A DNA stretch of 64,000 bases from Cymodocea nodosa (taxonomy: Eukaryota; Streptophyta; Magnoliopsida; Alismatales; Cymodoceaceae), in assembly GCA_036874045.1 (NCBI GenBank), contig CM072344.1, forward strand, positions 11,442,501 through 11,506,500, read 5' to 3'. Under the pieces are notes generated by a model, which searched no databases, was not told the origin of the DNA, and was given only the letters and a program-made list of their open reading frames with translations. The position numbers and the translations under genes are program-made. Of this stretch, positions 17,970 through 46,845 are shown piece after piece. Every line of letters begins with the position of its first letter. Positions within the stretch are counted from its first letter, which is position 1.

Positions 17970-19065
17970 TGTTTAGAATGAAAAAGTGCATAATATTAAC
18001 GGTTAAATGATGGTTAATTTCATAATATTTAGCTTATCATATAAGAATAAGTCATTATGTTATAATTACACTGTTATATACTTTAATGAAAGAATCTGCA
18101 TAATTTCAAGAAATTAGCATTAATTAAGTACATTTCTAAACTGTCGGTGAATTACAAGCTTTGAAATTCTTAAATATCTGAATTTTCTATTATTTCGGAG
18201 AGTTATATTGCATGTACCAGATAGTTATGTTTTTAACGATAGAAGAATATTTTATTATTTCCTAGAGTGCACGTGTTGAAATCATAATGCATGACTTAAG
18301 TGGATTTTTAGTAAGTTATCTGCTAACTATCCGAAATGCATCTAGCATCGGATAGTTAAGGTTTGTAAGTATCCAAAATATCTGAACTTGTTAAGTTAGA
18401 TTTATGCACATGTTGAATTTAAATGCTTTAGTATATCATGTGAGATGCACATGTTTAACTCGTTAAGTTAGCATAACTATATGCGTTGAGTTACTTGAAT
18501 ATACATTAAGGTAACACGTTTTGTTATGCAGAAATAGGAAAAGTAAACTTTCGGATAGTTAACGTTTTGGTTTTGTCGAAGAGTTATGTTAAAAACTCGT
18601 ATAGTTAAGTTATTTGCACGTGTGTTTTTAATGTTTTAAGTTGTCATGTTTTCCATGTGCGTTCGGTAACGAAAATCGAAGAGTTAGATAACTGTTCGAG
18701 TTTTATATACATGAATAGATAATTGTTCAAGTTTTATACACATAGATGGATAACTATTTGAGTTTTATAAAGTAACGAACAGATAAGTTTTCTTGGTTAG
18801 TCATGTGTTTTGTAAGTGCAAAAAACTCGAAGAGTTACAGATAAGTGTTCAAGTTTTTACAGGACTTAAAGGATAAGTGTTCGACTAAAACGAAGACTAA
18901 TATGTCACTATAATAGTTACAGAAACAGAACATTCGAAGGAAAATCACGATTACACGTATCACGTAGGAATTCACTCGTAGAATGAAGAAGAAATCACCA
19001 TCGTTGATGTAAATGAAGGAAATCCAACTGATCATTTAAGTAGAAGCAGTTACTACATAAAGAAA

Positions 19066-19073
19066 TATAAAAG
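19066..19073 (+). promoter_or_regulatory. TATA box of the G1 LTR
   Basis: TATAAAAG within agaaatataaaagaagaaga. The same box is kept in the 3' LTR (34113-34120) and in G1-minus (40088-40095, minus strand). Transcription would start near 19100. Confidence 0.65.
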
Positions 19074-19879
19074 AAGAAGAGGAAGATAAAGACAGTGTGT
19101 GTGTAGAGGTGGAGGACCATGCTAACTGCAGGCAACGTCGAAAGTTCCTTGAAGCTCCACACCACCACCAAAATCACTAACCATCGGAGGTTAGTGAGGA
19201 TACTTTCCTGATGTCAGGTCGATTCCGAGCCAAACACGGTGCCTGACAACCATTGTGAGGAGTGATCGCGTCACAGGAAGGGAAACCATTTTCACCAAGC
19301 ACCGACTCAAATCTTAGGAGATCGTAAAGCTTCTAGCCTTGGTTTCAGGTTGATGGCAGTTTACTGAAGAGAAGATCATCTTACAATTCTAGATTCGCAA
19401 TTCTATAGGGAGAGGAGGCAAGATTGTAAGTGATTAAGCTTTTAGTAGTGTAATCACGTCGCATGTAGTGACGAAAGTTTTTACTGTCGATAGAGATTTT
19501 TACATTTCACCTTTCATTCATCTTCAGGAACATATCAATACAAAAATACCAAAAACAACAAATTATCTGTGTTTACATTTAGTATTTAAGTGTTGTATTA
19601 TTTGTTTTGTATCGTGATTAATGTTATCATTGTCAGTATTGTGAATGTTTTATGTTTGTTTGATTTAGAAAATAGAAAATAGTTTTACAGTTTATTGAAA
19701 TTGATTCGTTCCAAATACTTACAGATTTTAATGGTTACTGTTTGAAATATCTGAATGTTAGTATTGCTTAATGATAAATCTAATATTAACTGATATTGAA
19801 GAGCTTAATTGATGTTAGTTACAATCTGTGGAACCACCCAATTGTTGGCCAAATTGCTCTATAAATAGTAGTATTTAAC

Positions 19880-19987
19880 TAGAAAGATAGGCTCGTGGAG
19901 TTAACTTAAGTCCACGAAGTTAGTCTGTTGAGTTAATCATAACTCCACGAACTTTGTCCGTTGTGTTAACTGTAACTCAACGGAGTG
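19880..19987 (+). repeat. GTTGAGTTA/TAACTCAAC hairpin cluster in G1 U5
   Basis: Several inverted repeats: for example ccgttgtgtta at 19958-19968, loop actg, then taactcaacgg at 19973-19983, an 11-base stem with one mismatch. The same units recur in the spacers of G1 at 25060-25215, 28083-28205, 30005-30055 and 31608-31665. Confidence 0.75.
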
Positions 19988-20243
19988 CTTAACTAAACAC
20001 ATAAACTCCAATATAAAAATTGAAACAGTACACAATTCTTAGTCAATCTCTGTGGGATCGACCTGTACTTGCACACAAATACAATATACACTATGCACTT
20101 GCAGTTAAAATACAAATTGGAATTAATATCTAATTTGTGTGAAAGGTTGTTTGTTTACTTCTAAAAGTAATCATTGATAAAGGCATAAAGACAAACCAAT
20201 ACAAGTTTTTTGATTTAACCTTTCACATCCAAGACAAGTTTTG

Positions 20244-20261
20244 TGGCACCATTGTTGAGGA
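20244..20261 (+). promoter_or_regulatory. G1 primer binding site, tRNA-Asp type, decayed
   Basis: TGGCACCATTGTTGAGGA, 16 bases after the LTR end. Against the tRNA-Asp-type site as I recall it (TGGCGCCGTTGCCGGGGA) there are five changes, all C-to-T or G-to-A. This pattern fits deamination of methylated cytosines. Confidence 0.75.
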
Positions 20262-20342: not shown

Positions 20343-21329
20343 ATGGCATATGCTTATGCTCAAAGATTTCTGAAACCTGTAGTTAGCATATGTGAATTCT
20401 GCAATTTAGAAGGTCACGACATCTCTGATTGTTTGAAATTGAGACGGTTGTAGATGGTTAGATCACATAAACAACAAATGAATTATATTCAATATAATAG
20501 AGTTGAGTATGAAAATCCTATAGTTTACCCAACTAATGGTCAGCATAGAATGTATAATATGTTGAGAGACACGGAAGTTTGGGATAGGTATGATAGATTG
20601 GAGCGTAGCTTAGAGCAAAACATGGACAAACTGGAACAATATATGTGTCAACAACAAGAAATCAACCAATTAAACTATAAGGAAGCATATTCAGAACCTA
20701 AAATTGATATTATTTATGAAACTGAAAAAACTATAATGAAAATCGATCAAAAATTGAATGCAATGAGATTAGATGATTTGGAAAAAAAATTAAAAGCATT
20801 GGACAAATATACAATGAAATTACAAGTTATGCAATAGGAAAACACAAATGAAAACTTTACCATTTCAAATTTGCATAATTTGCAAGACATACAGAAAAAA
20901 GAAAATGCCAATGCAATAGAATTTAAAGAATGCAATTTAAAACTAAAAATAGTTGAAGATCATAAGCACGAAAATGAAATACAAGAACATCATGAAAGTA
21001 ATGAAAATCTGGAAGATGTATGTATAACATTAAGATCTAAAACAGATATACCACCAAGAATTCAACAAGAAAATGACATGAAGGTGGATCAAAACAAAAA
21101 TCAAAATGATAATGAAAATATAATATCTAAAAATTTAGAAGTCAATGAAGAAAAATCTGAATCTGAAAATGAGACTAAAAATGATCAAACAAATGAAATG
21201 AAAGATAAAGAATCTTTTAAATCACAATCACTAGCACCCTATCCTAAAAGATTACAACAAACATTTCCTGAAAAAAAGAAAAAATTAGAGAAATTTTTGA
21301 AAACGTACAAGTTAACATTCCTTTGTTAG
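20343..21329 (+). pseudogene. G1 zinc-knuckle protein, 5' part of the pol frame
   Basis: From the ATG at 20343: MAYAYAQRFLKPVV, then a CCHC knuckle (CEFCNLEGHDISDC), then an in-frame TAG at 20451, a lysine/glutamate-rich linker with coiled-coil character, a TAG at about 20835, and LTFLC with a stop at 21329. All parts share one frame. A similar start with knuckles opens G2 at 6852. The capsid part normally found upstream of the knuckle in Athila-type gag is absent here and appears instead at 28556. Confidence 0.8.
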
Positions 21330-21790
21330 ACTTATTGCAAAAAATGCCACCTTGTGCTAAATTTCTTAAGGATTGGTGTACTAAGAAAAGAGAGTGAAAA
21401 GTTTTAAGAAAAGTCTTTTTAGCTGAGCAAAGTAGTTCCCTATTTCTGCCACAAATTCCTAAAAAGTTATCTGATCTTGGAATCCCTGTTATATCATGCA
21501 CCATAGGAAATACCATTCTAGAAAGAACTTTAATAGACCTAGGTGCAGGTATAAATGTAATGCCGAGTGATATATTTGCATCCTTAGGATTAGAAGGCTT
21601 AATCCCTACTAGGACAGTTATTCAATTAGTTGATAGAAGTATAAGATACCCTAGAGGAAAAATAGAGGATGTCCTAATTAAAATCAAAAACTTCATATAT
21701 CCTATTGATATTGAAATTTTGGATTCCCAACAAATTAAGCATCAAAATCATAACACATCTTTAATTTTGTGAAGACCATTCTTAGCAACA
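21330..21790 (+). pseudogene. G1 aspartic protease region
   Basis: Retropepsin-like region with LIDLGAGINVMPSDIF near 21530-21580, then GLEGLIPTRTVIQLVDRSIRYPRGKIEDVLIK (read in pieces) to a stop at 21772, followed by RPFLATSKVVINC. It closely parallels the G2 protease. The usual D-T/S-G triad reads DLGA, as in G2. Stops and frame changes make it inactive. Confidence 0.8.
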
Positions 21791-21799
21791 TCAAAGGTT

Positions 21800-22216
21800 G
21801 TTATAAATTGTAAAACTGGAGTAATGAAGTTAGTATATGGTAATGAGGATACTCAATTAAACATTTTCAAACCAAAAAAGTTTGAGGAGTTAGAAATATC
21901 CTTACATACTATAGACTTTTTAGAGGATGAAGGAGATATACTAGATGATGTGATTCAAGAAGAACTAAATAGGCAACTAAGTTTTGAAAATTTAGGAGAA
22001 AGAGAAACCTTAAATATAGAAGGAGATCAAGAAGAAAATGAAAATGTTCAGTTAGGAGCTCTAGCTTCTAATAGGCAACATTTAAATTTAAAACATTTGC
22101 CTCCTGAATTAACCTATATATTTCTTAAAGAAAAACGAACATGCCCAATCATTATTGCTTTAGATTTAGAAGAGAATCAAATTGCTAAATTAGAGAGTGT
22201 ATATAGACTATAGAAA
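21800..22216 (+). pseudogene. G1 linker between protease and reverse transcriptase
   Basis: Acidic stretch (GVMKLVYGNEDTQLNIF, then FLEDEGDILDDVIQEELNRQ) and the start of the RT-connecting region (LNLKHLPPELTYIFLKEKRT, CPIIIALDLEENQIAKLE). It ends where about 100 codons seen in G2 (the GWTMVDIKGISP to WVSPIQVV part) are missing; the join is at about 22195-22200, inside the tgtatatagactatagaaag string. Confidence 0.75.
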
Positions 22217-22845
22217 GCTGAATGCTGTGACAAGGAAAGATCATTTTCCCTTACCTTTTATAGATAAAATGCTAGAGAAATTAGCACGGCAAGAATATTT
22301 TTGTTTCGTAGACGGGTATTTAGGATATAACCAAGTTCCAATAGCATTAGAGGATCAAGAGAAAACAATTTTCACCTATCCTAATGGAACTTATGCTTTT
22401 AAGAGAATGCCATTCGGATTATGAAATGCACTAACCACCTTTCAAAGGTGTATGCAGGGCATATTCACTGGAATGACTGAAGATTCTTTAGAAATATTTA
22501 TGGATTATTTTACTATTTATGGAACTTCATATGAAGTGTGTTTAAACAATTTAGACCAAGTATTAAAACGTTGTGTGGAAAAAAATCTGATTCTAAATTG
22601 GGAAAAATGTCACTTCATGGTTAAACAAAGAATAGTCTTGGGACATGTTTTAAAGAAGGGGTTGGAAGTAGATAAAGCTAAAATAGAAGTAATTTCTAAT
22701 CTACTAGAACCTAAATTGGTAAAAGATATTAGATCATTTCTTGAACATGCTGGATTTTATAGAAGATTTATTGAAGATTTTAGCAAAATAGCTAAACCTT
22801 TAACTAATCTATTAAAAGATGTCCCATTTAACTTTGATAAAAATT
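22197..22845 (+). pseudogene. G1 reverse transcriptase, N-terminally deleted
   Basis: Begins at YIDYRKLNAVTRKDHFPLPF and continues through FVDGYLGYNQVPIALEDQEK, RMPFGL, FQRCMQGIFTGMTEDSLEIF, then FMDYF where the catalytic motif is FMDDF in G2; the second aspartate is therefore lost. The thumb and connection parts (KCHFMVKQRIVLGHVLKKGL, FLEHAGFYRRFIEDFSKIAKPL) follow. An in-frame TGA lies at 22424 and a stop at 22845. It cannot encode an active polymerase. Confidence 0.85.
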
Positions 22846-23410
22846 GAAAAGAAGCATTTTTCAAGCTTAAAACTAGCTTAATTTCAACTCCTATAATACA
22901 AGCACCTAATTGGAGCCATCCATTTGAATTAATGTGCAATGCATCTGATTTTGTTGTAGGAGTAGTGTTGGGACAAAAGATAGAAAGATCTCCTAGAGTG
23001 ATTCATTATGCAAGCAAAACTTTAAATGATGCTCAAGTTAATTATACAATTACTAAAAAAGAACTATTAGCTGTGGTGTTTTCCTTAGAAAGTATAGATC
23101 ATATCTAATTGGAGCTAAAGTGATAGTATACATGGATCATTCAACTTTAAAACACCTAATAGCAAAGAAAGAAACTAAGCATAGATTGATCCGATGTATA
23201 TTATTCTTACAAGAATTTGATCTAGAAATTAAAAATAAAAAAGGTTGTGAGAATGTAGTAGCAGATCATTTATCAAGATTACAAATAGAAAAATCAAATA
23301 TGGAAATTAAGGATAATTTTCCTGATGAACAATTAATGACCATCAACACAATGCCTTGGTATGCAGACATAGTTAATTACTTGGTTACTGGTTTAACACC
23401 TAAGGATTAG
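22846..23410 (+). pseudogene. G1 RNase H
   Basis: FELMCNASDFVVGVVLGQK matches the start of gypsy RNase H, with Asn in place of the first catalytic Asp; [20 protein letters not shown] and [11 protein letters not shown] follow. A frameshift lies near 23100, and the last part ([20 protein letters not shown]) is in the same frame as integrase. Confidence 0.8.
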
Positions 23411-23428
23411 AATAAACAAGATAAGAAA

Positions 23429-24697
23429 TTGTTCTTTCCAAGAGTAAAATATTACTATTGGGAAGACCCATACTTATTTATGAAATGTCCTAACCTGGTT
23501 TTAAGGAGGTGTGTTCCAAAAACTAAATATCAGAGCATATTATCTTTTTGCCATGACCAAGTATGTGGAGGGCATTTTGGTTCAGGGAAAACGGCTACTA
23601 AAATTCTACAATATGGTTTTTATTGGCCAACACTATTCAAAGATGCTCATAAATACTACTTAAGTTGTTTAAGATGTCAACAAATAGGAAGAATATCAAA
23701 GAGGAATATGATGCCTCTTAATCCTATTGTTGAGGTTGAAATCTTTGATGTGTGGAGAATAGATTTTATGGGTCCATTTCCTATGTCTAATCAATTTAAT
23801 TATATGTTGTTGGGGGTGGATTATGTATCTAAATGGATAGAAGCTATTCCTATAAAAACTAATGACAACAAGGTGGTAATACATTTCATAAGAACTAATA
23901 TAATTACCAGATTTAGAATACCTAAAGCTATTATCAGTGATAGAGGAACTCATTTCTGTAATAGAAGTTTTGAAGCCTTAATGAAGAAATATGGAGTAAA
24001 CCACAAAATTGCAACATCATATCATCTACAAACAAGTGGACAAGTAGAAAGTGCAAACAAACAAATTAAGTTAATCTTAGAAAAAGTAGTAAATCCTAGT
24101 AGGAAAGATTGGGCTAATAGATTAATAAATGCACTTTGGGCTTATAGAACTGCTTATAAGACAAGCTTAGGTATGTCACCTTTTAGGCTAGTATAAGGAA
24201 AAAGTTGTCATTTACCAATTGAAATTGAACATAAAGCTTATTGAGCATTAAAAACTTTGAACACTAATTTAAATCAAGTTGTTGAAAATAGGAAAATGCA
24301 ATTGATTGAACTAGAAGAATTTAGGAATGAAGCTTATTCGAAAACTGTAAGAGAAAAAGAGAAAATGAAGTTCTAGCATGACAAGAAAATTATTCCAAAA
24401 ACCTTTGAAATAGGACAAGAAGTATATCTTTATATGACTAGACTCTATAACCATCTAAGAAAATTAAGATCTAGATGGGCAGGACCTTACATAATTCGAA
24501 ATATTTATTCCTATGGGGCCATTGAAATTGAAAATCCAAAAAATCATAATATATTTAAAGTAAATGGACAAAGACTTAGACCTATTTTGAAAATACCAAA
24601 AAGTTCCTTTGGAATTATAGAGGAAGTAAGAGTAAAGGAACTACTCGAGCTTTACTTGGTAAGAAATTTTCTAAGTATGTTAAAAATAATAAAATAA
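23429..24697 (+). pseudogene. G1 integrase
   Basis: The best-preserved part of G1 pol. The zinc domain has CHDQVCGGHFGSGKTATKIL and CLRCQQ. The core has the catalytic Asp in VWRIDFMGPFP, the second in IISDRGTHFCN and the Glu in SGQVESANKQIK. After a TAA at about 24194, the C-terminal domain continues in the same frame (LRKLRSRWAGPYIIRN) to the TAA at 24695. No chromodomain is visible, as expected for Athila-type integrase. Internal stops inactivate it. Confidence 0.88.
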
Positions 24698-24714
24698 CCA
24701 TATTTAAACATAGT

Positions 24715-25030
24715 CACGGTTCAACAGAAAGAAATTATAGGTTTTATTGAAACATATATTAAAAGAAAAAAATCATTACAGTTCAACTGACAAGATCCAT
24801 CTATCTGACCGAAACATAAAAACATAAAAAATCTATATATTATATTAAGTAAAAATGTTGGTTTTACCAAAACATAGTATCGATTCAACTGGAAAAAAAA
24901 GAAGAAGAGAGAAAGAGAGTAATTAATTTCGGTTCAACCGAGGAATATAACGGTTTGACCGAAAAATTCTAAAATGTTAAAATTAAGAGTTAGTTAGACC
25001 GGAAATTCTTCGGTCTTGACCGAAATAAAT
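24715..25030 (+). repeat. CGGTT..ACCG palindrome cluster after integrase
   Basis: Short imperfect palindromes repeat here: cggttcaaccg, cggtttgaccg, cggtcttgaccg, plus decayed relatives such as ggttttaccaaaacatag and cagttcaactg. They fill the start of the spacer between integrase and ORF3. I see no coding signal. Confidence 0.6.
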
Positions 25031-25054
25031 ATTATTATTAGATATAACTTTACA

Positions 25055-25215
25055 GGAAGTTCGTTGAGTTACGCTTAATTCAACGAACTTACTCCATTGA
25101 GTTTAGGATAAATTAGCGAGCTTACCCCATTGAGTAAACTATAACTCAATGGAGTATTGTAGTTAAGTCCACAGACTTAGTCCGTGGAGTTAACCGTAAC
25201 TCTACGGAGAGGTAA
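25055..25215 (+). repeat. GTTGAGTTA/TAACTCAAC hairpins before ORF3
   Basis: Units such as gttcgttgagttacgcttaa, then ttcaacgaac, and ccattgagtaaactataact, then caatggag. The cluster ends in ctacggagaggtaagtgag, which contains a splice-donor-like gtaagt. Confidence 0.7.
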
Positions 25216-25296
25216 GTGAGAGAGTGAGAGTTTGCACGGGAAAATGACTCGATTACTTGCCTAAACTTAGGGTTTATTTATACTAAAACTTAGGAT

Positions 25297-27585
25297 TTGG
25301 GGGCATTATCTACAGAATCATTTAGAACTTCGAATAGTGGAGATCAAAGCAATTCTATTCCGTTTCATAACTCCATGATGACAAAGATGACACCCAAGTT
25401 CTGGGAGGAAGCAGTTGACATGTTAGAATTTCTTAAAGAATCGGAAGAATGTCACACGAGGCAAAAGATCAGAAATACAACGAGGGAAAAAGAGCTACAA
25501 AAGGTAGAATCTAACCTTTTCTATTGGAGGAAAGTGTTAGTGGATTTAGGCATAAAAATACCTTAGATTATGGAAACGAGAATCAAAGTAGCAACAGAAG
25601 TTGCTGTAAATAGAGAAAGACGAATCAGGCCAAATAATGAAGTTGCCCTAGAATTGATCCAACGTAAGTCCCGACTCTGGTTCAAAAGACGAATAGGTAG
25701 ACAGGCTCATTGGGCAATCTGGGAGCAACAAAGGAAAGTAAATGAAGAACAAACCATTGAAGAACAACAAGAGGAACCGACTGTTGAAAGACCTATCCCT
25801 GAGGAACAACAACCAAGACCTTCAATTCAGCCAACAGAACCACTATCACGAATAGCATTTGTTTGGTTGAGAACTGAAGAAGAAGATAAAGAGTTTGCTA
25901 GCTTGGTTAAAACAGCAAAAGACCAAGGAGATAAGGAAGAAATGGCTATAGCCAAGGCACATATTTTATATGCTACCATAAAGAGAAGGCAGGCAGAAGA
26001 AAAGTTGAAGGGCCAATACAAAATTAAAATAGAGCAACATCAGGAAACAACTACATTAAGTGCTGCAAAAGAAACTAAAGTTGGTCCTTCGAGACTAGTA
26101 ATTATAGAGATAGTGAAATAGGAAGAGCTAGTACCTGTGGCTTGAAGGCCTGTAGAGCCTATTGTTGTAGATTTAATCTCAAATGAGGAAGAGGAAGATT
26201 AGGCACAATTAATTAGAAGAAGGAAAGGAAAAGAGATAGTGCTTGAACATCAAGAAGAGATTAAATTTGAAATGCAAATATCAATAGGGCCTATAGAGCC
26301 AATTTTTGTAAACCTGCTATCTGAATCTAAGGAGTAGGAGTAGTAGCAATAAGAGCAAAGAGAAGAAGAAAAACAGGCTGAAACTAAGTTGCAGCCAGTA
26401 CAAACAGAAGAAACAAAAATTAGGGCAGAAGCTAATTTGCCCGTGACTCCATCCCAATCTGCCACAAGATCAGAAAGAACAATGACAATGCAGATTGGTA
26501 GTCAGGAGGAAGAAGAAAGAGAAGAAGCTGAACAAGTACTCATTGAACAAGAAAGGAATGACTCGACAGATTCCACTGAAGAGGGAGAAACTCTTCAGCA
26601 AATTTTGGAAGGAATTCAAGATAGAGTGGACAGTTCTACCGACTCTCCACCATAGACAGAAGTAGAAGCAAAAATGCAAGAATCTCTAGAGCATTCCCAA
26701 CCAATTCAAGTTCAGCACATGGAATAGGAAATTCAAGAACAAACCCCTCTAAAGCAACAAATTCAAATTCCTGACCCGGCTGAAGCTACCATTCTAAATG
26801 TACACTTTTGGAGTCAGGAAGCTTATAATAAATATCAAGAGATTAGGGGTTATGATATTATTTACAGTAGACCAATAAACTAGGACAATATGTAGGAAAT
26901 TAAAGATTTATTTGAGTTCTAGGGTCTACTACAATTTATTTCTCAACAGAGAGGGCATACAGTGTATGAGAATCTAGTACCCTACTTCTATGCAAATTTA
27001 AGAGAAGGAGAAAGTGGATTAATTTTCGACGTGGAGCAAGCTGATGTACAGATAACACCAAAACTTCTCCACAACATTTTAGGACTGAAGAATGAAGGAA
27101 TAGAAATTCTGGAAAGCACAACTACAGTCAAGTGGACAAAATAGATAATAAAGGATTGTTTAGCTATCAATCGTAGTGTGCCACTATTAAATAGATTGAA
27201 GCACTTAAATGGTAAAGCACACATGATAGCTAACATTTTGATTAAGAATGTCTACCAACGACAAGGCCATGTTATTGAATTAAGTCAGTTTGTCAAATGG
27301 GCCACATATGCAGTTGTGAACAGAATTCAGATTAATTGGTTTGTAGTGTTTATCTCCAAATTGAGAGCAACAAAGAAGAAACTATTTTATGGAGATCTGA
27401 TTCCATTGCTGATGGTGGACAGTATTGATTTCACGAAATGGGCATCCAAAAGGAATAGATCTAGAGCCATTTCAATGAAAGAATGCAGAAATTATGTTGC
27501 TGTTGAGATTACTGAACCTTCTGGAAGCATTACAGGAGCTGTAGAGAGGATAAATCAATTAGAGCAACAACTAGAAAAACTCTAG
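25297..27585 (+). pseudogene. G1 ORF3: acidic/coiled protein with a putative plant transposon-protein domain
   Basis: One frame of about 760 codons runs through the region with more than a dozen stops, nearly all TAG. The likely start is the Met at 25375 (MMTKMTPKFWEEAVDMLEF); the frame is open upstream to 25297. The N-terminal half is glutamate/glutamine-rich. The C-terminal half (about 26960-27440) has LVPYFYANLREGESGLIFDV, LLHNILGLKNEGIE, LIKNVYQRQGHVIELSQFVK and KKKLFYGDLIPLLM, resembling the FYANL-type 'putative plant transposon protein' domain of Athila-related elements (from memory, not searched). It ends with a coiled coil (VERINQLEQQLEKL). In G1-minus several stops are replaced by Trp or Gln. 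Function unknown. Confidence 0.72.
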
Positions 27586-28555
27586 AAGGAAGTAGATGAA
27601 CTTAGGAAGAAAGATTCAATTGTATTGTTCGTCTACTTATATTTATATTTATATGAAAATATCTGATTGAATGTAAATGTAAATTATTCATATAAAGGAA
27701 TAAATGTTTTTCAGATGTTTTTACATTTGTGTTTGAGAATGAATGATGTAATGGATGAACTATCTTGAATATTATATAACTATTTGAACAATGTGCAAGT
27801 CTGTTTAAAAGATTTACATATTTTCTGAATGACATGATTAAATTCACGATGTTTAGTTAATGTTGAAAATATCTACATGCTGAAAAGTAAAATGTAAATT
27901 TTGCACAATAGGAAATGAACTACAAGTTAAATATGCATATAATGTGTAGATTTAAATGAGTTTAAATTAGAACATTGCATAAATGACATGTATTTAACTT
28001 TATTTAAGTTGACAAAATGCAGGAAAAAAATATATACAAAAGTTAATACTAAGAGCAAGTTTTAGAAAATTTGCTAAGTGTTAACTCAATAGAGTAAGTC
28101 TATTGAGTTAATTGTAACTCAACGAAGTTAATCCGTAGAGTTAGCAATAGTAACCGAAGCTAGTTAGTTGAGTTAACTGTAACTCAACGAGGTTAGTTCA
28201 TGGATTAAGCTAAACAGCTATTCTTTTAGCCATGAATGAAACTTCGTGGGTTTAGTAGTTACTGAAATTTGAAATTAGAAGTGGAACACGTATCCATAAA
28301 AATAGGAACCATACTACACGTTACAAGACACATTCTTGCAACGAGATTCATTCACTTTACGGACGTGCATTATAAATATAGAATAGAATGTTATTTATGA
28401 GTTAGTAGCACTTTTGAAACAAAAGAAAATTCATTGGGGAATTAGAAGAAGAAGCAGCTAATTCAACTTCATCCATCAACAACTATTTACTGAAAACAAA
28501 GCTTCAGACTGGTATGTAATTAATCTTCTGCTATTTCACTTTATGTTAAGAGTTT
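27586..28555 (+). other. Spacer between ORF3 and gag with hairpins and a TATA-like box
   Basis: No ORF of note. It holds a GTTGAGTTA hairpin cluster (28083-28205), including the stem gttgagtta 28167-28175, loop actg and taactcaac 28180-28188, and a TATA-like box at 28371-28380. The whole spacer is conserved in G1-minus at 50151-51177. Confidence 0.65.
28371..28380 (+). promoter_or_regulatory. Candidate internal TATA box before G1 gag
   Basis: TATAAATATA about 180 bases before the gag ATG, downstream of acacgt/cacgta-type ACGT cores at about 28286 and 28317. The same box is kept in G1-minus (minus strand, 50326-50335). It may drive a separate transcript of gag and the F-box ORF; this is inference. 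Confidence 0.4.
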
Positions 28556-29905
28556 ATGAGCACATGAATTTGTTCTCCTAGCACTAAACAATTAGTAAGA
28601 ACACCTACATAGGATTATTCAACAAAGAGCCGTACTGAAATATTTTCTGAATTGGACTTTAACAAAATCCTTAGGGGTATAGCTAACCTTTCTTTAAAAG
28701 AGAACGAAGATATGGCTGCTCTAGTAGAAAAACCATTAGGGGAAATTCTGTATCCTGAATTAGTTGATGAACCTTCATGTATTTGATTGCCAAACTTTGA
28801 GGGAGATAGGTTTGAACTGAAATCTAATTATATTAGTCAATTGCCACATTTTCATGGATTAGAAAATGAAGATGCCTATTATTTCCTTAGAGAATTTAAC
28901 GAAGTTTGTCAAATGATGAAAATGTCGAACATGAGTATTGATGCTATTAAACTTAGATATATCCCTTTTGCTTTAAAAGACATAGCTAAGAGATGGTTAT
29001 ATACTTTGTCGCTTGATTCAATTTCTACATGGACTGAATTTTGCTCTGTTTTTCTAGAAAAATATTATTCAACACATCAAACGATTAAAAAGAAAAAGGA
29101 AATATTAATGTGTAGCCAAAAACAGGGAGAATCATTTTGGAAATATTTTGAAAGATTTAAAGATTTACTAACTTAATGTCCACATCATGCAATGAGTAAA
29201 ACACAATTAATAAGTATAATTTATGAAGGCATAGATGTTTCAACGAAATCTTTATTAGAATCTACTTGTTAGAATGGATTTTTAAAACTGTGTAGTGAAA
29301 AAGCATGGGCATACTTAGAAAACTTTGCAAAAAGAACTGCATAGTGGAAAAACTTAGTTGAAGCTATTACAGATAAAAGAATATTGCCAAGGGGAATGCA
29401 TGAAATAGATTCAAGCACTATGCTTGAAATTAAATTAATTGAATTAACAAAGAAAATAGAAGAGTTATCATTAAATCAAAAACTAGCAAAAAAGAATGCA
29501 AACGTTAATGACTTAGATATTATTTATGCTAGAAACCATAAAGATAACTTTGGAAATTCTTATAACCCTAATTGGAGAAATCACCCAAATCTATCTTGGA
29601 GAAACAACAATTTCCACGGAGGAGAAAATATAAATGACAAAAATATAGGTTATGAAGCATTAATTGAACAAGGATCTAGAATAGAGAAATTAGAAAAGAT
29701 AATTCAACAATTAAACAATCATCTGGATCTTGTATTTGGAAATGCTGCAATTCAAAATCAAAATATGAATAGAAATATACCCCCTAGACAGAAGGAGTCA
29801 ATGGAAGTTAGACCAACTAGAGGATTCCTAATGCGAGCAGTACCTAACCCTGTTAATAGAACTGTTAATGAAATTGATACCTCCTATGGGAGGGAAGCTG
29901 AATGA
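28556..29905 (+). pseudogene. G1 capsid-type gag, located 3' of pol
   Basis: The ATG at 28556 opens a 450-codon frame to the TGA at 29903. It has the Retrotrans_gag pattern of Athila elements: FHGLENEDAYYFLREFNEVC, IDAIKLRYIPFALKDIAKRW, TWTEFCSVFLEKYYSTHQ, CSQKQGESFWKYFERFKDLL; then a coiled segment and SYNPNWRNHPNLSWRNNN and PNPVNRTVNEIDTSYGRE at the C terminus. The zinc knuckle usually found before the WRNHPNLSW segment is missing; knuckles are instead at the start of the pol frame. In-frame stops (28568, after PSCI, after DLLT and others) have sense codons at the same places in G1-minus. It would make the virus-like particle shell. Confidence 0.85.
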
Positions 29906-30120
29906 AGTAGTATAATTGAAGTAACTATGTATAATACAGTAAGTATATAAAAAAAAAAAAAAATGTAAGTTTAATTGTAGTTAGTAGTATTGTAGAGTTA
30001 TTACTTAACTCAATGAACTTAGATCGTTGAGTTATGACCTAACTCCACGAGGGTAAGTAAGTAGCTATGTTAATTTTGTTTTTGTTAAATTTTTGTTTAT
30101 GTTATACAGAATCACAACAG
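29906..30120 (+). other. Spacer between gag and F-box ORF
   Basis: Contains an A-run (about 29949-29963), one GTTGAGTTA hairpin unit (30005-30055), and then gggtaagtaag followed by a pyrimidine-rich stretch and ttatacag at 30102-30109, which look like a splice donor and acceptor. The ATG of the F-box ORF follows 11 bases after the acceptor-like site. The arrangement is conserved in G1-minus. Confidence 0.6.
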
Positions 30121-31250
30121 ATGGAATTGATGAAATTACCACTAGATGCACTAAGGGAAGTACTGAGTAACTTGTTAGCTAAAGATCTATGCAGATTGTG
30201 TTGTGTATCAAAGAAAATCAAAGACTATGTTAGAGAAAAATATTTTCATGGACTACAAGTTGCAAAAATGACTAAGGTTAGAGATGGACTTCTATGGAAG
30301 TCATTTAATCGTAGTTCAATCAGCTATGAATATCTGAATATAGAAGAAACTATTGGAATTCCACCCAATACATTAGAAGGAATAGATCATATTATGGGGA
30401 TAGACGAAGGATTAATTATTTATAGAACCAAACCAAGGTATGCAATTCTATTACCAGATATTTTGATTAGAAATCCCATCACTAGAGAAGAATGGAATAT
30501 AGGGAGGCCTAATAGATTTGAAGTACCAACTGAAAATTGTGGGTCAACTTTAACATTTCCTAATAAAAATTCGACCATTCCTGAAAAATTGTATTATTGG
30601 AGACCAATTGGAAATTGGGTATGCTTAAGTGTGTATAATTTCTGAATAGATCTTGGACTGAAAATACTATGAAATATCTAGGACAGAAAGCATTAATTAA
30701 CAGCATGCATGTCATACTTGATGGATATATATATCTAGTCACAGATATATCAGTTGCATTTAGATCTGATTTATACATAGTAAGCATAGATAGTTATGAT
30801 GATGACTTTATAGAAATATTGCCTATACCGAGTGATATAGCTAAACCACCATCTTCAGAATATGATAAAATTTAATTAGGAATGTGGTATAATGAATATG
30901 ATGATCCTACTTTATGTCTAATCAGATGGTGGGATGAATTGATGAAATTTCAAATATGAATTATGAAAGACCTAAATGAATGGAAGTAGGAAGAAGAATA
31001 TATTGAAATAGATGGAGAAATAAAAATAGCTACATTATCTTGGAATAGAAGAGGATCCCTTTCTACATTTCAATTCATTAATGGAAATACACTTATATTT
31101 AGTATTGATAACATACTGCAAGCTTACAAGTTAAAAAGGAAAGCGGACTACACTAAAACAGAATTAATAGCAAGAAGAATTATGCCTAAAAAGTTTGCTT
31201 AGACTGACACATTTATTCCATTTGTTACTATTTTTCAATCATGTTCTTAA
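30121..31250 (+). pseudogene. Retrotransposon-borne F-box protein (G1-plus copy)
   Basis: The ATG at 30121 begins MELMKLPLDALREVLSNLLA, then KDLCRLCCVSKKIKDYV, a clear F-box (about residues 4-40), the motif that docks substrate receptors to SKP1 in SCF ubiquitin ligases. About 340 further codons resemble F-box-associated C-terminal domains (ILIRNPITREEWNIG, LCLSVYNF, ISVAFRSDLYIVSIDSYDDD, IATLSWNRRGSL). Length of about 377 codons fits such plant proteins. Compared with the minus copy it has lost 9 bases near 30620 and one base near 30640, ending the first frame at 30645; later stops include a TAA at 30873 shared with the other copy and TGA/TAG where that copy has Trp. The ATG at 30067 upstream is probably not used, since the other copy has a TAG before the shared ATG. 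Substrate unknown. Confidence 0.82.
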
Positions 31251-31727: not shown

Positions 31728-31762
31728 TTGAGGACAATGCAAAATGTAGGTATGGGGGGAGG
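31728..31762 (+). promoter_or_regulatory. Upstream polypurine motif of G1-plus
   Basis: ttgaggacaatgcaaaatgt followed by aggtatggggggagg. It is about 1.3 kb before the tract next to the LTR, and could serve as a second plus-strand priming site. Confidence 0.6.
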
Positions 31763-33047
31763 TAATTTAATTAGCAACCAAGTAATTTTGTTAATTAGAG
31801 GAATTAGAATAGTACTACAAAGTTTTGTGGAAATTGAAAATTTTTATGCATTTGCTGTAACTATCTAATGATTGAGATTGTAAAATTTTTAAGAATTGTA
31901 ACTACTTAAATGTTATATTTCTAATCTTATATATAAGATGCTACAAAATTTTACTATTCATACCAATCTAGATATAGTATCTTATGTTTTTGCTGAATTT
32001 TATGAGTTTAACAATTTCACGATTTTAAAAAAAAATTAGAATGCTTAACTGAAACTCAGTAAATTATTTGAAATCCTAAATGAGCTGAAATGTTGATTTT
32101 TGGATTAAATGAGATGCATATGATCAAGGATACATTTAATTTGATTGATTAAACTTGTAGAATGATTTATGTGTAAATCTTATTAAATTATAGAGAAAGT
32201 ATGAGCTTATTGATATGGATTCATATTTTCAGTAAATAATAGAAGTAGGACTATACGAGATTTGTGTTTTATTGCATCTGTATTAATGAAATATGTATAT
32301 ATACTATGTTGAAAAGAAAAGAAAAAGAAAAAAAGAAAAGAAAAACTTTGAGAGTTTATTGACTTGTTTGATCACAAGCCTTTTGTACTTGAGCAGATAG
32401 GTATGTAAGGATTGTTGACTTGAAAAAGGACTCTTTAAATCTGGCAACCTAAGATCCTGATCAGATCTGGGATTGTTGACTGAAATCTCGATACATGGGT
32501 ACACTGGAAAGCTCTTGTATGATTCAAACTTTTCAAATTAACTTTTAAAGTACAAATATGCATATATTGTTCTGAAAATATAAAAGTGTTTTGTGAAATA
32601 CAGATATCTTTTGAATCGAGTATATCTTATGTTATCTAAGATTGCTGAAGTATGAATCTAGAATAAACTTTTGAAGTTGTTTATCTAAGATACAATTCTT
32701 TATTCTACTTGTTTTAATCATATTGAATTGGATTGTATTTTGATTCGTATGTAGTTGAAATTTATTCTGGAAATCATATTGGAAAATTCAGGATAATAGA
32801 TGTTTGAAAAGAAGAGAAAACGATAATATAATTACCACCTATATGATGCTAATATATTTTGTATGTAATTTACATATGTTTTAAATATATTTGCAGGTTG
32901 AAGAGGAGAAAACAAAGTTAAAACAGATTATTGAAAAATACTGAATATCTATATAGTAATCTAATTTATTATTCTGAAGAAGAACAAAAGAAAGAATTAA
33001 TTCTAGCACTTTAGAAAGACCAACTAGTTATATCTTAGTTTGCCAAG
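31763..33047 (+). other. 3' noncoding region of G1-plus
   Basis: 1.3 kb of AT-rich DNA without a credible ORF, colinear with 40820-42090 of G1-minus. A purine-rich run at 32310-32345 is the only low-complexity feature. Confidence 0.55.
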
Positions 33048-33076
33048 GGACTAGCAAAATTTAAGTATGGGGGAAG
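33048..33076 (+). promoter_or_regulatory. Polypurine tract of G1-plus
   Basis: ggactagcaaaatttaagta then tgggggaag directly before the 3' LTR start TG at 33077; standard plus-strand primer position. Confidence 0.8.
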
Positions 33077-34173
33077 TGTTTAGAATGAAAAAGTGCATAA
33101 TATTAATGGTTAAATGATGGTTAATTACATAATATTTAGTTTATCATATAAGAATTAAGCTATTATGTTATAATTGCACTGTTATATGCTTTAATGAAAG
33201 AATCTACATAATTTCAGGAAATTAGCGTTAATTAAGTACATTTTTGAACTCTTGGTGATTTACAGGCCTTGAAATTCTTAAGTATCCGAATTTTCTGTTA
33301 TTTCGGAGAGTTATATTGCATGTACTGGACAGTTATGTTTTTAACAATAGAAGAATATTTTATTATTTCCTAGAGTACACATGTTGAAACCATAATGCAT
33401 GACTTAAGTGGATTTTCGGTAAGTTATCTGCTAACTATCCGAAATGCATCTAGCATCGGATGATTAAGGTTTGTAAGTATCCGAAATATTTGAACTCGTT
33501 AAGTTAGATTTATGCACGTGTTGAATTTAAATGCTTTAGTATATCACGTGACATGCACATGTTTAACTCGTTAAGTTAACATAACTATATGCATTGAGTT
33601 ACTTGAATATACATTAAGGTAACATGTTTTGTTATGCAGAAATGGGAAAAGTAAACTTTCGGATAGTTAACGTTTCGATTTTGTCGAAGAGTTATGTTAA
33701 AAACTTGTATAGTTAAGTTATTTGCACATGTGTTTTTAATGTTTTAAGTTGTCACATGTTTTCCATGTGCATTTGGCAACGAAAATCGAAGAGTTAGATA
33801 ACTGTTCGAGTTTTATAAACTAATGAACAAAAAGTTTTCTTGGTTAGTCATGTGTTTTGCAGGTGCAAAAAACTCAAAGAGTTACAGATAAGTGTGCGAG
33901 TTTTTACAGGACTTAAAGGATAAGTATTCGACTAAAATGAAGACTAATATGCCACTATAGTAATTACAAAAACAAGTCATTCGAAGGAAAACCACGATTA
34001 CACATATCACGCAGGAATTCACTCATGGAATGAAGAAAAAATCACCATCGTTGATATAAATGAAGGAAATCCAACTGATCATTTAAGCAGAAGTAGTTAC
34101 TACAGAAAGAAATATAAAAGAAGAAGAGGAAGACGAAGAAAGTGTGTGTGTAGAGGTGGAGGACCATGCTAAC
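33077..34173 (+). repeat. G1-plus 3' LTR, truncated
   Basis: Matches 17970-19134 of the 5' LTR from the TGTTTAGAATG start through the TATA box (34113-34120) to ggaccatgctaact, where it is joined to a CA LTR. The bases aact at 34171-34174 are shared by both partners. R and U5 are missing. Confidence 0.88.
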
Positions 34174-34500
34174 TCGAACAGTTATCTATCCATACGTATA
34201 AAAACTCAAACAATTATCTAACTTTTCAATTTTCATTACCGAACACACATGGAAAACACATGACAACTTAAAACATTAAAAACACACATGTAGATAACTT
34301 AACTATACGAGTTTTTAACATAACTCTTTGACTAAATCGAAACATTAACTATCCAAAAATCTAACTATCCAAAATTTTAAATGAAACTTTCTGATATCTT
34401 GTCAATATTTAATTACGTGACTGTTATACTTAGAAAATATTATTTAGACTTATTTAAAAACGTTAATAAAGCATTCATCATCAAAACAAAATTCCTAACA
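34174..34500 (-). repeat. CA-type LTR fragment (5' part, minus strand)
   Basis: The minus strand starts TGTTAGGAATTTTGTTTTGA at 34500 and matches about 13729-14100 of the CA-3 LTR. It stops at the G1 junction. It may be the 5' LTR of CA-2, whose gag was split by G1-plus; one deletion would then have removed the G1 end, the CA-2 gag start, its primer site and the rest of this LTR. Confidence 0.75.
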
Positions 34501-38035: not shown

Positions 38036-38377
38036 AACTTCAAGCAAGGTCCATTGAGGTCAGTGGAAGTAGAGCGAGGTCAATAGAGTTCAAACGATGT
38101 TAGTGGAGTTCAAGCGATGTCGACAAAGTTCAAGTGAGGTCAATGATGTTCTAGCGAGATCGAGAAAGTTCCTACGAGGTCAATGAAGTTCGACCAAGGT
38201 CGATGGAAGTAGAACAAGGTCAATAGAGTTCAAGGTCAGCAAAGTTTGGGCGAGGTCAATAGAGTTCAAGTGAGGTCGATGAAGTTTGAGCAAGGTCAGC
38301 AAAGTTCAAGCAAGGTTGGTGACGTTCGAGTGAGGTTGGCAAAGTTTGGGTGTGGTCAGTAGAGGTCAGGTAGGCTT
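38036..38377. repeat. Degenerate 20-bp minisatellite
   Basis: About 16-17 units with the form gttcaagcgaggtcaatgaa, for example gttcaagcgatgtcgacaaa, gttcaagtgaggtcaatgat and gttcgagtgaggttggcaaa. Nearly all are exactly 20 bases; one near 38230 is 16. It is richer in G and C than its surroundings. Confidence 0.85.
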
Positions 38378-38911: not shown

Positions 38912-40787
38912 TGTGAAAGGTTAAATCAGAAGACTTGTTTGTGGTTGTTAACTTCTGTTTTTAAACTTGCTTAATTTGTCTTTATGCCTATATCAATGAT
39001 TACTTTTAGAAGTAAACAAACAACCTTTCACACAAATTAGATATTAATTCCAATTTGTATTTTAACTGCAAGTGCACAGTATATATTGTATTTGTGTGCA
39101 AGTACAAGTCGATCCCACAGAGATTGAGTAAGAATTGTGTACTACTCTTGTTTTTATATTGAAGTTTGTGTGTTCAGTTAAACACTCAGTTGAGTTACAG
39201 TTAACACAACAGACTAAGTTCATGGAGTTATAGTTAACTCAACGGACTCACCTCGAGGGCTTAAGTTAACTCCATGAGCTTATCTTTCCAGTTAAATACT
39301 ACTATTTACAGAGGAATTTGGTTAACCGTTGGGCGGTTCCACAGATTGTAAATAACATCAATTAAGCTCTTCAATGTTAGTTAATATTAGATTTATCATT
39401 AAGTAATACTAACATTCAGATATTTCAAACAGTAACCATTAAAATCTTTAAGTATCTAGAATGAATCAATTTTAGTAAACTGTAAACCTATTTTCTATTT
39501 TCTAAATCAAACAAACATAAAACATTCATAATACTGACAATGATAACATTAATCACGATACAAAACAAACAATACAACACTTAAATGCTAAACGTAAACA
39601 TAGATAATTTATTGTTTTTGGCATTTTTGTTATGATATGTTCTTGAAGATGAATGAAAGGTGAAATGTAAAAATCTCTATCGATAGTAAAAACTTCTATC
39701 ACTACATGCGACGTGATTACACCACTGAAAACTTAATCACTTACAATCTTGCCTCCTCTCCCTATAGAATTGTGAATCCAGAATTGTAAGATGATCTCCT
39801 CTTTAGCATACTGGCATCAACCCGAAACCAAGGCTAGAAGCTTTATGATCTCCTGAGATATGAGTCGATGCTTGGTGAAAATGGCTTTCCTTCCTGCGAT
39901 GCGATCACTGCTCACAATGGTTGTTAGGCACCGAGTTTGGCTTAGAATCAACTCGACATTAGGAAAGTATCCTTACAGACCTCCGATGGTTGGTGATTTT
40001 GGTGGTGGTGTGGAGCTTCAGGGAACTTTCGACGTTGCCTATAGTTAGCACGGTCCTCCACCTCTCGCACACACACTTTTTCTTCATCTTTTATATTTCT
40101 TACAATAGTAACTGCTCCTACTTAGATTATCGGTTGGATTTCCTTCATTTATATCAATGATGGTGATTTCTTCTTCATTCTACGAGTGAGTTCCTACATG
40201 ATACGTGTAATCGTGGTTTTCCTTTGAATGTCTTATTTCTGTAACTACTACAATGGCATGTTAGTCTTCATTTTAGTCGAACACTTATCTATAACTCTTC
40301 GATTTTCATTACCAAATGTACATGGAAAACATGTGACAACTTAAAACATTAAAAAAAACACACGTCCCAATACGAGTTCAGATATTTCATATACTTATAA
40401 CCTTAACTAACCAATGCCTAGATGCATTTCGGATAGTAAGTAGATAACTCACCAAAAATCCACTTAAATCATACATTAAGGTTTCAACACGTGTATTCTA
40501 GGAAATAATAAAATATTCGTTTAAAACATAACTGTCCGGTACATTAAACATAACTCTACGAAATAAAAGAAAATTTGGATACTTAAGAATTTCACAGCCT
40601 ACAATTTACCGACAGTTCAGAAATGTACTTAATTAATGCTAATATCCAAAAATTATGTAGATTCCTTCATTAAAGCATATAACAGTGAAATTATAACATA
40701 ATGGCTTAATTCTTATATGATAAGCTAAATATTATGTAATTAACAATCATTTAACCGTTAATATTATGCACTTTTTCATTCTAAACA
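38912..40787 (-). repeat. G1-minus 3' LTR
   Basis: On the minus strand it runs from TGTTTAGAATGAAAAAGTGC at 40787 to aacctttcaca at 38912, 1,876 bp. It is shorter than the G1-plus LTR, partly because of a deletion in the CA-like block near 40360. TATA box at 40088-40095 and a hairpin cluster at 39175-39290 are kept. Confidence 0.88.
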
Positions 40788-40825
40788 CTTCCCCCATACT
40801 TAAATTTTGCTAGTCCCTTAGCAAA
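40788..40825 (-). promoter_or_regulatory. Polypurine tract of G1-minus
   Basis: The minus strand reads agggactagcaaaatttaag then tatgggggaag directly before the LTR start; the same as in G1-plus. Confidence 0.8.
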
Positions 40826-42094
40826 CTAAGATCTAACTAGTCGGTCTTTCTAAAGTGCTAGAATTAATTCTTCCTTTTGTTCTTCTTCAGAATAATAAAT
40901 TAGATTACTATATAGATATTCTGTATTTTTCAGTAATCTATTTTAACATTGTTTTCTCCTCTTCATCCTGCAAATATATTTAAAACATATGTAAATTACA
41001 TACAAAATATATTAGCATCATATAGGTGATAATTATATTATCATTTTCTCTTCTTTTCAAACATCTGTTATCCTAAATTTTCCAATATGATTTCCAAAAT
41101 AAATTTCAACTACATATGTATCACAACACAATCCAATTCAATATGATTAAAACAAGTAGAATAATGAATTGTATCTCAAATAAACAACTTCAAAAGTCTA
41201 TTCTAGATTCATACTTCAGCAATCTTAGATAACAGAAAATATACTCGATTCAAAAGATTTCTATATCTCACAAAACACTTTTATCTTTTCAAAACAGTAT
41301 ATGCATATTTGTACTTTAAAAGTTAATTTGAAAAGCTTGAATCATACAAGAGCTTTTGAGTGTACCCATGTATCAAGCTTTCAGTCAACAATCCCATATC
41401 TGATCAGGATTATAGGTTGCCAGATTTAAAGAGTCATTTTTTAGGTTAACAATCCTTACATACCTATCTACTTAAGTACAAAAGGCTCGTGATCGAACAA
41501 GTCAATAAACTCTCAAAGTTTTTTTCTCTTTTTTTTTCTTCATTTCAACACAGTATATATACATATTTTATTAATACAGATGCAATAAAACATAAATCTC
41601 ATATAGTCCTACTTCTATTATTTACTGAAAATATGAATCCATATCAATAAGCTCATACTTTTTCTGTAGTTTAATAAAATCTACACATAAATCATTCTAC
41701 AAGTTTAATCAATCAAATTAAATGTATCATTGATCATATGCATCTCATTTAATCCAAAAATCAGCATTTCAGCTCTTTCAGGATTTCAGATAATTTATTG
41801 AGTTTCAATTAAGCATTCTGATTTCTTTTTAAAATCGTGAAACTGTTAAACTCATAAATTCAGCAAAAACATAAGATACTATATCTAGATTTGTATGAAT
41901 AGTAAAATTTTGTAGCATGTTATATATAAGATTATAAATATAACATTTAAGTAGTTACAGTTCTTAAAAATTTTACAGTTTTAATTATCAGATAGTTACA
42001 GCAAATTCATAAAAGTTTTCAATTTCTACAAAACTTTTGCAGTACCATTTTAATTCCTCTAATTAACAAAATTACTTGGATTTTAATTAAATTA
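40826..42094 (-). other. 3' noncoding region of G1-minus
   Basis: Colinear with 31763-33047 of G1-plus. No gene; a pyrimidine-rich run lies at 41518-41542. Confidence 0.55.
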
Positions 42095-42130
42095 CCTCCC
42101 CCTATACCTACATTTTGCATTGTCCTCAAT
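42095..42130 (-). promoter_or_regulatory. Upstream polypurine motif of G1-minus
   Basis: The minus strand reads cattgaggacaatgcaaaat then gtaggtataggggga. It is the counterpart of 31728-31762, with one G changed to A in the G-run. Confidence 0.6.
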
Positions 42131-42179
42131 GTAAAAGATTTTACAGTAAATTCAGTAAATGTTAGCAGGTAGGAATATT

Positions 42180-42250
42180 GTTTCGTTGACTTAGCACCTA
42201 ACTCAACGAACTTAATTCATTGAGTTAATGAATAACTCCACGAACTAAGT
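42180..42250 (-). repeat. GTTGAGTTA/TAACTCAAC hairpin unit (G1-minus)
   Basis: Counterpart of 31608-31665: cgttgacttagcacctaact, then caacgaacttaattcattga and gttaatg. Confidence 0.6.
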
Positions 42251-42279
42251 TTAAATCTAAATTCAGGATAAGTAATCAA

Positions 42280-42345
42280 TTACATACTTTGTTCTTTTGT
42301 ATCTCCTTCAATATCCTCTAAGTTTTGATTTTGAAAACTTTTCAT
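42280..42345 (-). other. Conserved 22-codon micro-ORF or exon end (G1-minus)
   Basis: MKSFQNQNLEDIEGDTKEQS M then TAA; the same length and ending as in G1-plus. See 31512-31577. Confidence 0.35.
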
Positions 42346-42605
42346 TCACAAATAAAAGTAGAATATATAACAAAATAACAAAACATAACTTGTTAAATCA
42401 ATGTCTTGTGTGGAACCTAGGCTCCTATGCCTTTGGTGGCTCACAAGCAAGCTAGTTCATTTCCCAGAACAGATACCAACAAACTAGATTGAAATTTTGT
42501 TTTTTTTTTCTTATAAAATAAAACTAAAACTAAAATTTTTCTTTCTTCTTTTTTTCTAAAAATAAATGCAAAATACACACAACATTAAATGTACAAAATT
42601 ACAAT

Positions 42606-42637
42606 TTAAGAACATGATTGAAAAGTAGTAACAAATG
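42606..42637 (-). pseudogene. C-terminal end of the G1-minus F-box ORF, beyond CB-1
   Basis: The last codons of the F-box ORF (TTFQSCS, then TAA at 42606-42608) lie left of the CB-1 insertion; the rest is at 47447-48559. The identical ending in G1-plus is at about 31218-31250. Confidence 0.8.
42633..42637. repeat. Target-site duplication of CB-1 (left)
   Basis: AAATG before the LTR start, repeated at 47447-47451. The uninterrupted sequence in G1-plus near 31216-31230 confirms the site. Confidence 0.92.
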
Positions 42638-44279: not shown

Positions 44280-44281
44280 AG

Positions 44282-44293
44282 TGGTATCAGAGC
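44282..44293 (+). promoter_or_regulatory. CB-1 primer binding site (initiator tRNA-Met)
   Basis: TGGTATCAGAGC two bases after the LTR end; unmutated. Confidence 0.95.
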
Positions 44294-44480
44294 TTCGTTA
44301 ATAATCTTTGATATAAAATCGATACCAACTTATTTAATATCATTGCTTATTCTACCTTTCTTATTTTTTAAACAGACATTAATATCTGAGCATACGTTTA
44401 ACTTTCTTGATTTAAGGCTCAAGTTGTTTTAATGTTTTTAGACTATTTAAAATCAAATAGGTTGAAAAATCTAAGGTAAG

Positions 44481-46739: not shown

Positions 46740-46769
46740 TTTGTTTTGCAAGAGGAAACGACATCAAAA

Positions 46770-46845
46770 TGGATCTTGGACAGTGGAGCATCAAGTCACA
46801 TGACTGGATAGAAAAGTCTACTACAAAATTTTACTGAATTCTTGT
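46770..46845 (+). pseudogene. CB-1 truncated protease
   Basis: WILDSGASSHMTG starts at 46770 in the same frame as gag, after the gag stop, then meets a TAG and crosses the deletion junction near 46840. Only the catalytic start of the copia protease remains. Confidence 0.75.

Follow-up and report, generated by a model that had tools for sequence, protein, structure and literature searches.

The window, i.e. the whole 64,000-nucleotide stretch of Cymodocea nodosa DNA analysed here (32% G+C), contains two copies of an LTR retrotransposon, one on each strand, and both of them carry an F-box gene. The plus-strand copy starts with a 5′ LTR (17970–20208), whose own 5′ end is missing or truncated and which was recognised by its identity to the 3′ LTR and to the minus-strand copy (17970–19127 is 91–93% identical to 33077–34174, and 18872–20208 matches 38963–40289). 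Inspection of the downstream sequence identified a primer-binding-site-like stretch (20244–20260), which we take to be of the tRNA-Asp type, and a short frame with a CX2CX4HX4C zinc-knuckle-like motif (20343–20450, read by eye), which marks the start of the pol region and gave no match in Pfam. Further coding sequences on the same strand are those of (i) an aspartic protease (21398–21769; PF09668, E 5.3e-4, below the curated cut-off), (ii) a reverse transcriptase and RNase H in a broken frame (22194–23407; PF00078, PF17919 with E 1.8e-23, and PF17917), (iii) an integrase (23411–24193; PF00665 and PF17921), (iv) an extra, Transposase_32-like ORF (26923–27582; PF20167, E 0.0021 on 26923–27141, below the cut-off), (v) a gag (capsid) gene, which is placed 3′ of pol and within an intron (28787–29902; PF03732, E 4.7e-13 on 28787–29173), and (vi) the F-box gene (30121–31250). 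The polypurine-tract-like sequence TATGGGGGGAGG (31751–31762) precedes the 3′ LTR (31771–34174), which was delimited by LTR identity and locus comparison; its start is approximate and its 3′ end is cut off.

The minus-strand copy is more fragmented. It comprises a pre-LTR region with the LTR (38963–42637, recognised by sequence identity), a broken F-box gene (47447–48559), a gag gene with broken frames (48806–50078; PF03732 with an E of just 0.11 on 49602–50078) and, set apart by insertions, an upstream part with the spacer and the start of the Transposase_32-like ORF (58840–59825). Copia-type sequence adjoins this copy at 42638–47447, where a Retrotran_gag_2 match was found at 44733–45542, and at 61034–64000, which is 90% identical to 42638–45668. 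Direct repeats (43674–44280 and 46841–47447) terminate at the 3′ part of the F-box gene on the minus strand. The window also contains two tandem repeat arrays with 20–62-base units (38073–38348 and 56814–57188), the second of which is apparently G+C rich compared with the window as a whole.

The LTRs of the plus-strand copy, together with its protease (below the cut-off), reverse transcriptase, RNase H and integrase in the gypsy order, place it among Ty3/gypsy elements. The canonical position of gag, 5′ of pol, was not found: gag lies 3′ of the integrase gene on the same strand, and the overall order is pol, Transposase_32-like ORF, gag and F-box gene (20343–29902 and onward). A gag gene 3′ of the integrase gene was also present in four of 20 fetched 10-kb loci (L009, L021, L023 and L024), the remaining loci not displaying both genes. 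In another locus (L014) the LTR end directly precedes the leader, pol and the protease. No additional RNase H was found between the RNase H and integrase of the plus-strand copy; since the Tat clade of OTA-type elements is characterised by an archaeal RNase H (aRH; PMC6317226), this would point to an Athila-like rather than a Tat family.

The F-box gene of the plus-strand copy was delimited by its ATG start, the F-box profile match and frame comparison. PF00646 matches the start of the frame with 37.9 bits (E 1.3e-9; cut-off 20.5), PF12937 (F-box-like) also matches, with 24.8 bits, and chance is excluded as the source of the F-box observation. The frame is open for 174 codons (to 30642) and then shifts, and four stops follow when it is read in the frame of an intact relative; the plus-strand copy is thus a pseudogene. 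Its minus-strand counterpart, 93% identical, is interrupted in frame by two stops, which follow 159 and about 254 residues, and its 3′ end abuts another repeat at 47447. Both copies being broken, the full protein could be made from neither. The preliminary description of this DNA had recognised a clear F-box here and the same gene in the minus-strand element, and it had proposed a profile search for the F-box; both observations are borne out, the first by a match above the curated cut-off.

Genomic distribution and domain structure of the F-box gene

The genome (374.6 Mb, 28 contigs) was searched with the DNA of three genes, yielding 4566 first-look candidates for the F-box gene, 4266 for gag and 3518 for the integrase gene; a genome-wide F-box search gave 4219, of which 150 were scored (none of these four figures is a copy count). 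Of the scored hits 48 were fetched, comprising the 28 top ones and 20 lower ones, 19 of the latter chosen for long open frames. All except one (47/48) proved to be the retrotransposon F-box gene. The sole exception, L005, has no match to the family and resembles an ordinary F-box gene.

In 16 of 20 10-kb loci sampled by their F-box gene, gag lies directly upstream of it (no gag sequence was seen immediately upstream in L010, L013, L022 and L028), and in 19 of them pre-LTR or LTR sequence lies downstream, the exception being L021, where the F-box gene continues into leader and pol. A host F-box gene merely adjoining a retrotransposon was rejected, the same flanks recurring across loci. We also sampled loci by gag, so that they were not chosen on the F-box. 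This sample consisted of 20 of 40 listed hits, all close relatives of the window copy (94–95%); the window itself was skipped, as were five hits among the first 26, whose F-box had been catalogued previously or which lay within L015. The start of the F-box gene was in place behind gag in all 20 loci, in two of them as short pieces (151 and 51 bases). The earlier proposal that the gene moves with the element is therefore upheld, and the gene is not one that most of the sampled members lack.

Sampling by integrase gave a different picture. Matches 2–16 of 41 were probed 5.5–6.3 kb downstream, and gag plus the F-box gene were found at the expected distance in just 4 of these 15 loci; in three others pieces of LTR or spacer were seen, and the remaining eight showed no recognisable sequence. 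Conversely, 5 of the 20 F-box-sampled 10-kb loci have an integrase gene upstream and on the same strand. The similarity of these fractions (27% and 25%) agrees with a single family that nested insertions and deletions have broken up. It is also possible that there is a separate class of integrase-bearing copies without the F-box gene, and the low count in the integrase sample weakens the explanation that we favour below.

Intact relatives of the gene encode a protein of about 378 amino acids and are present in both main clades of the family. PF00646 matches all seven intact relatives in alignment A1 (42.8 bits in L027; cut-off 20.5). TIGR01640 (F_box_assoc_1) also matches all seven, below its cut-off of 37.9 bits (best E 3.9e-7; 26.9 bits in L027 and 34.5 in L055), and it exceeds the cut-off in the genomic stretches of L063 (41.8 bits, no internal stop) and L012 (39.3 bits, reading through two stops). 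Pfam FBA_1 (PF07734) gave weak matches in four of the seven, with E 0.026 at best, below the cut-off. The portion downstream of the F-box thus probably resembles an F-box-associated domain, the profile matches lying mostly under the curated cut-off. A remainder of this kind had been proposed for about 340 codons at the locus; the resemblance stands for the intact relatives, mostly at sub-threshold scores, and the window copy itself is open for 174 codons. An AlphaFold model of the seven intact relatives was unusable (pLDDT 33.5), so that the assignment of the C-terminal part rests on the profile matches. Protein database searches and a scan of viral contigs, in collections that are possibly poor in plant sequences, revealed no relatives of the F-box protein; a PDB sequence search gave no match with the window piece and, with the family alignment, a sole match to F-box only protein 4 (E 0.78).

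Frames of at least 370 amino acids are open in 8 of 65 aligned copies, 19 of which had been pre-selected for long open frames; in a sample chosen by DNA similarity, 1 of 20 copies is fully open. L001, L002 and L008 represent more distant subfamilies, with 61–67% amino acid identity to L027. The matches of L002 and L008 stop at residue 182, and the comparison of L008 is limited to the residues up to this point, the sequence diverging beyond it.

The gag-containing intron

The stretch that corresponds to window positions 28512–30109 (plus strand), which includes gag, is precisely absent from five genomic copies (L010, L028, L035, L040 and L041), in which GCTTCAGACTG is joined to AATC. This stretch has the ends of a GT-AG intron. 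The donor GT is present in 14/14 intron-bearing copies with data, mostly as GTATGT, and the acceptor side consists of a T-rich tract whose last bases are ACAG or ATAG, with the AG in 22 of 27 copies. L010, L028, L104 and L105 have colinear upstream exon sequence, L104 and L105 being located ahead of L035 and L040. The five intron-less copies require, on the F-box tree, 5 changes by parsimony, and no fewer than 4 once nodes below 90 have been collapsed, counts for which two truncated tips of invisible state were coded as unspliced and which recombination between copies could lower.

These copies very probably derive from the reverse transcription of spliced RNA. That they are instead precise deletions, or a single old lineage, seems very unlikely: each of the five has ends that match a GT donor and a T-rich acceptor, the upstream exon is colinear in the four loci named above, and the tree argues for at least four origins, even if just five such copies were observed, the two truncated tips were coded as unspliced, and the tree is an imperfect guide to copies that recombine. 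Two of the intron-less 10-kb loci, L010 and L028, contain reverse transcriptase/RNase H (L028 also integrase) and the F-box gene without gag. If they do originate from spliced RNA, an RNA without the capsid gene has been reverse-transcribed and integrated.

Removal of the intron puts the F-box start codon 9–11 bases past the junction, and we suppose that splicing probably gives access to the F-box gene, and retention of the intron to Gag. The box TATAAATA at 28371–28378 (plus strand; TATA[AT]ATA in 11 of 13 copies with data) weakly suggests a candidate internal promoter, in a region that is A+T rich.

Four further loci (L012, L015, L017 and L026) are tandem arrangements in which the internal regions are short and the left junctions vary; the row reads F-box end, LTR, gag or part of it, F-box, LTR. 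In L012, L015 and L026 segments of the 3′ LTR flank gag plus the F-box gene on both sides. A second intron at the LTR/gag junctions of these four loci was considered and rejected, as the sites differ and no splice consensus was visible by eye. We read these junctions as deletions or template switches.

The size of the family, the gag-containing intron and the order of pol before gag are all additions to the preliminary description.

Selection on the F-box gene

Inserted copies of an element decay freely, and constraint is thus expected in changes that are common to several copies. When all substitutions were counted in a 22-copy set chosen by DNA similarity, the in-frame omega of shared changes (0.47) was not clearly below the values of the other two frames (0.56 and 0.49). 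Since these all-substitution counts of shared and private changes were indecisive, probably owing to recurrent transitions that seem to imitate sharing, transversions were used instead, with a mutation spectrum taken from LTR sequence. The p-values given below treat sites as independent and ignore relatedness.

Shared transversions in the F-box gene gave an omega of 0.32 (N108 S48, p 1.3e-9), and private ones a near-neutral 0.87 (p 0.21). Shared transversions in the other two frames yielded 1.14 and 1.64; when LTR sequence was treated as codons, the values were 1.14–1.66 (shared) and 0.74–1.59 (private). The signal is present in residues 51–200 (0.32) and residues 201–378 (0.30); the F-box part itself (residues 1–50) contains too few shared transversions (N11 S2, omega 0.62, p 0.39). 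Omega is 0.38 (p 0.013) for transversions that mark a clade exactly and 0.45 (N20.5 S10.5) for differences fixed between the two main clades (1.03 and 1.67 in the other frames). With all clade-diagnostic substitutions the signal is blurred (0.66, p 0.12; other frames 2.51 and 1.29). Between pairs of copies, transversion omega drops from 1.04 (two closest pairs) to 0.35–0.38 past 18% divergence.

Gag and the Transposase_32-like ORF are also constrained. Shared-transversion omega is 0.06 in the capsid part of gag and 0.30 in its C-part, while the Transposase_32-like ORF (window 26923–27582), under purifying selection with an omega of 0.14 in 8 copies, is more constrained than the F-box gene. Private omega is low as well in the gag C-part (0.46, 22 copies) and in the Transposase_32-like ORF (0.37, 8 copies), so that private changes do not form a purely neutral class in these two.

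The F-box gene is kept under purifying selection. Neutral evolution, which the preliminary description had named among the outcomes that would refute its proposal, is not what the shared transversions display. The view of the gene as a passively transduced host gene, a functionless passenger, is accordingly rejected as extremely unlikely: it would accord with the broken state of most copies and with the frequency of gene capture by plant LTR retrotransposons (PMC3726574), but purifying selection is seen on shared and clade-diagnostic transversions (omega 0.32 for the shared ones against 1.1–1.7 in the controls), full-length open copies exist in both main clades, and the gene start is present in 20/20 gag-sampled loci.

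Possible role of the F-box protein and comparison with known systems

The combination of an F-box with an associated domain is the usual layout of plant SCF receptors. The explanation that we favour, and regard as rather more probable than its negation, is that of a high-copy, Athila-like Ty3/gypsy family with a selected F-box accessory gene, expressed by alternative splicing and redirecting SCF to the benefit of the element. The element transcript would be alternatively spliced around the 1.6-kb intron: where the intron is kept, Gag could be made, and where it is removed, the F-box gene would stand directly behind the junction. The F-box of the element protein would then dock on SKP1/ASK, and its C-terminal part would bring a target to the SCF ubiquitin ligase, to the advantage of the element. 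SKP1 binding and SCF activity of the protein are quite probable, and a role as SCF receptor is likely. Its target may perhaps be a host defence or silencing factor, although we would put this below even chances; a cell-cycle or other host regulator appears a fairly unlikely target, and the element's own proteins an improbable one. Suppression of silencing, the role proposed earlier for this gene, is thus possible, and the gene may have been captured from a host, as was also proposed there.

A broader version of this explanation is tentative and somewhat doubtful. It would see here a permuted lineage, with the nucleocapsid-like motif and pol first and the capsid gag last, in which the intron serves as a switch, its removal yielding an SCF receptor that disables host defence and its retention yielding capsid and RNA packaging.

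The retention of both the F-box and the remainder of about 330 residues, i.e. the usual layout of plant SCF receptors, together with the constraint on residues 51–200 and 201–378, which equals that of the whole (0.32 and 0.30), makes it unlikely that the selected protein acts without a working SCF ligase, by sequestering SKP1 or in a non-ubiquitin role (e.g. env-like or RNA-handling). Such an action would have some parallels. The P0 protein of poleroviruses is reportedly stabilised by SKP1 contact (PMC6593998), and the gene studied here occupies the place of an env-like ORF and, like that of Bagy2, for which a spliced message is reported (PMC7264820), is seemingly reached by splicing.

It is also conceivable, if quite improbable, that the selected accessory gene acts on the element itself, marking Gag or integrase for degradation and thereby limiting copy number or timing particle assembly. 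This reading would suit an F-box RNA that is devoid of gag, so that a given RNA serves for just one of the two products. There are precedents for self-limitation among other retroelements. A gene solely lowering copy number would, however, be unexpected in a family for which the searches gave thousands of first-look candidates.

Returning to the element as carrier of an SCF receptor, we compared it with known systems. The viral F-box proteins P0 and Clink are not known to have an FBA domain. Host plant F-box/FBA genes share the layout of F-box plus F_box_assoc_1; unlike them, the gene described here lies within an LTR element and is present in high copy. Extra ORFs are known in plant LTR elements (PMC7264820 and PMC11963269). 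The env-like ORFs of Athila and Bagy2 and the antisense ORFs of Grande, RIRE2 and Retand resemble the present case in that an additional conserved gene follows the core genes and precedes the 3′ LTR. They differ in being env-like, TRP28 or unknown in kind; here the product is an F-box protein, and gag is intronic and 3′ of pol. The F-box gene behaves as such an additional ORF in the presence of its start in 20/20 gag-sampled loci and in its omega of 0.32, yet it stood at the expected distance in just 4/15 of the integrase-sampled loci.

The acquisition and retention of a cellular-type domain by a gypsy family has a counterpart in orchids, whose gypsy elements retain an AlkB-type domain (PMC9289625, a survey of 121 angiosperm genomes whose main text does not contain the term F-box). 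The orchid domain is an RNA demethylase, active as a purified protein; here a ubiquitin-ligase adaptor is predicted from sequence. Polerovirus P0 and nanovirus Clink are likewise F-box proteins encoded by genetic parasites of plants, and bind SKP1-type adaptors; they are viral proteins with tested functions (PMC3588083), whereas the function of the protein described here is predicted from sequence. If the silencing idea is true, a further analogue would be VANC of Vandal MULEs, an anti-silencing gene carried by a plant transposon itself, which differs in belonging to a DNA transposon, in encoding another protein and in acting by hypomethylation of related copies (PMC13317346). The reverse direction is known from Caenorhabditis, where F-box genes captured a transposon domain (PMC12062965).

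No description of LTR retrotransposons with an F-box gene as a constant component was found in the titles and abstract openings of the papers listed by searches on F-box genes and retrotransposons outside the subscription literature, and the term F-box is absent from the main texts of seven papers that deal with gene capture, additional genes or the classification of elements (PMC9289625, PMC6431247, PMC13317346, PMC3726574, PMC7264820, PMC5408684 and PMC6317226). As far as these literature searches go, the family would, if our reading is true, be the first LTR retrotransposon with a ubiquitin-ligase adaptor of its own. Its gene order and intron are unusual and may deserve more attention.

The family inflates F-box gene counts (47 of 48 fetched hits, 150 scored), which matters for annotation. 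The layout with gag in an intron and pol before gag is relevant to the control of Gag levels in LTR elements and, if the intron does act as a switch, would amount to an early/late programme like that of complex retroviruses. The extra genes of plant retrotransposons are mostly of unknown role, and a selected F-box gene points to SCF ubiquitination; if its target is a component of silencing, this would constitute a retrotransposon counter-defence comparable to viral P0 or VANC.
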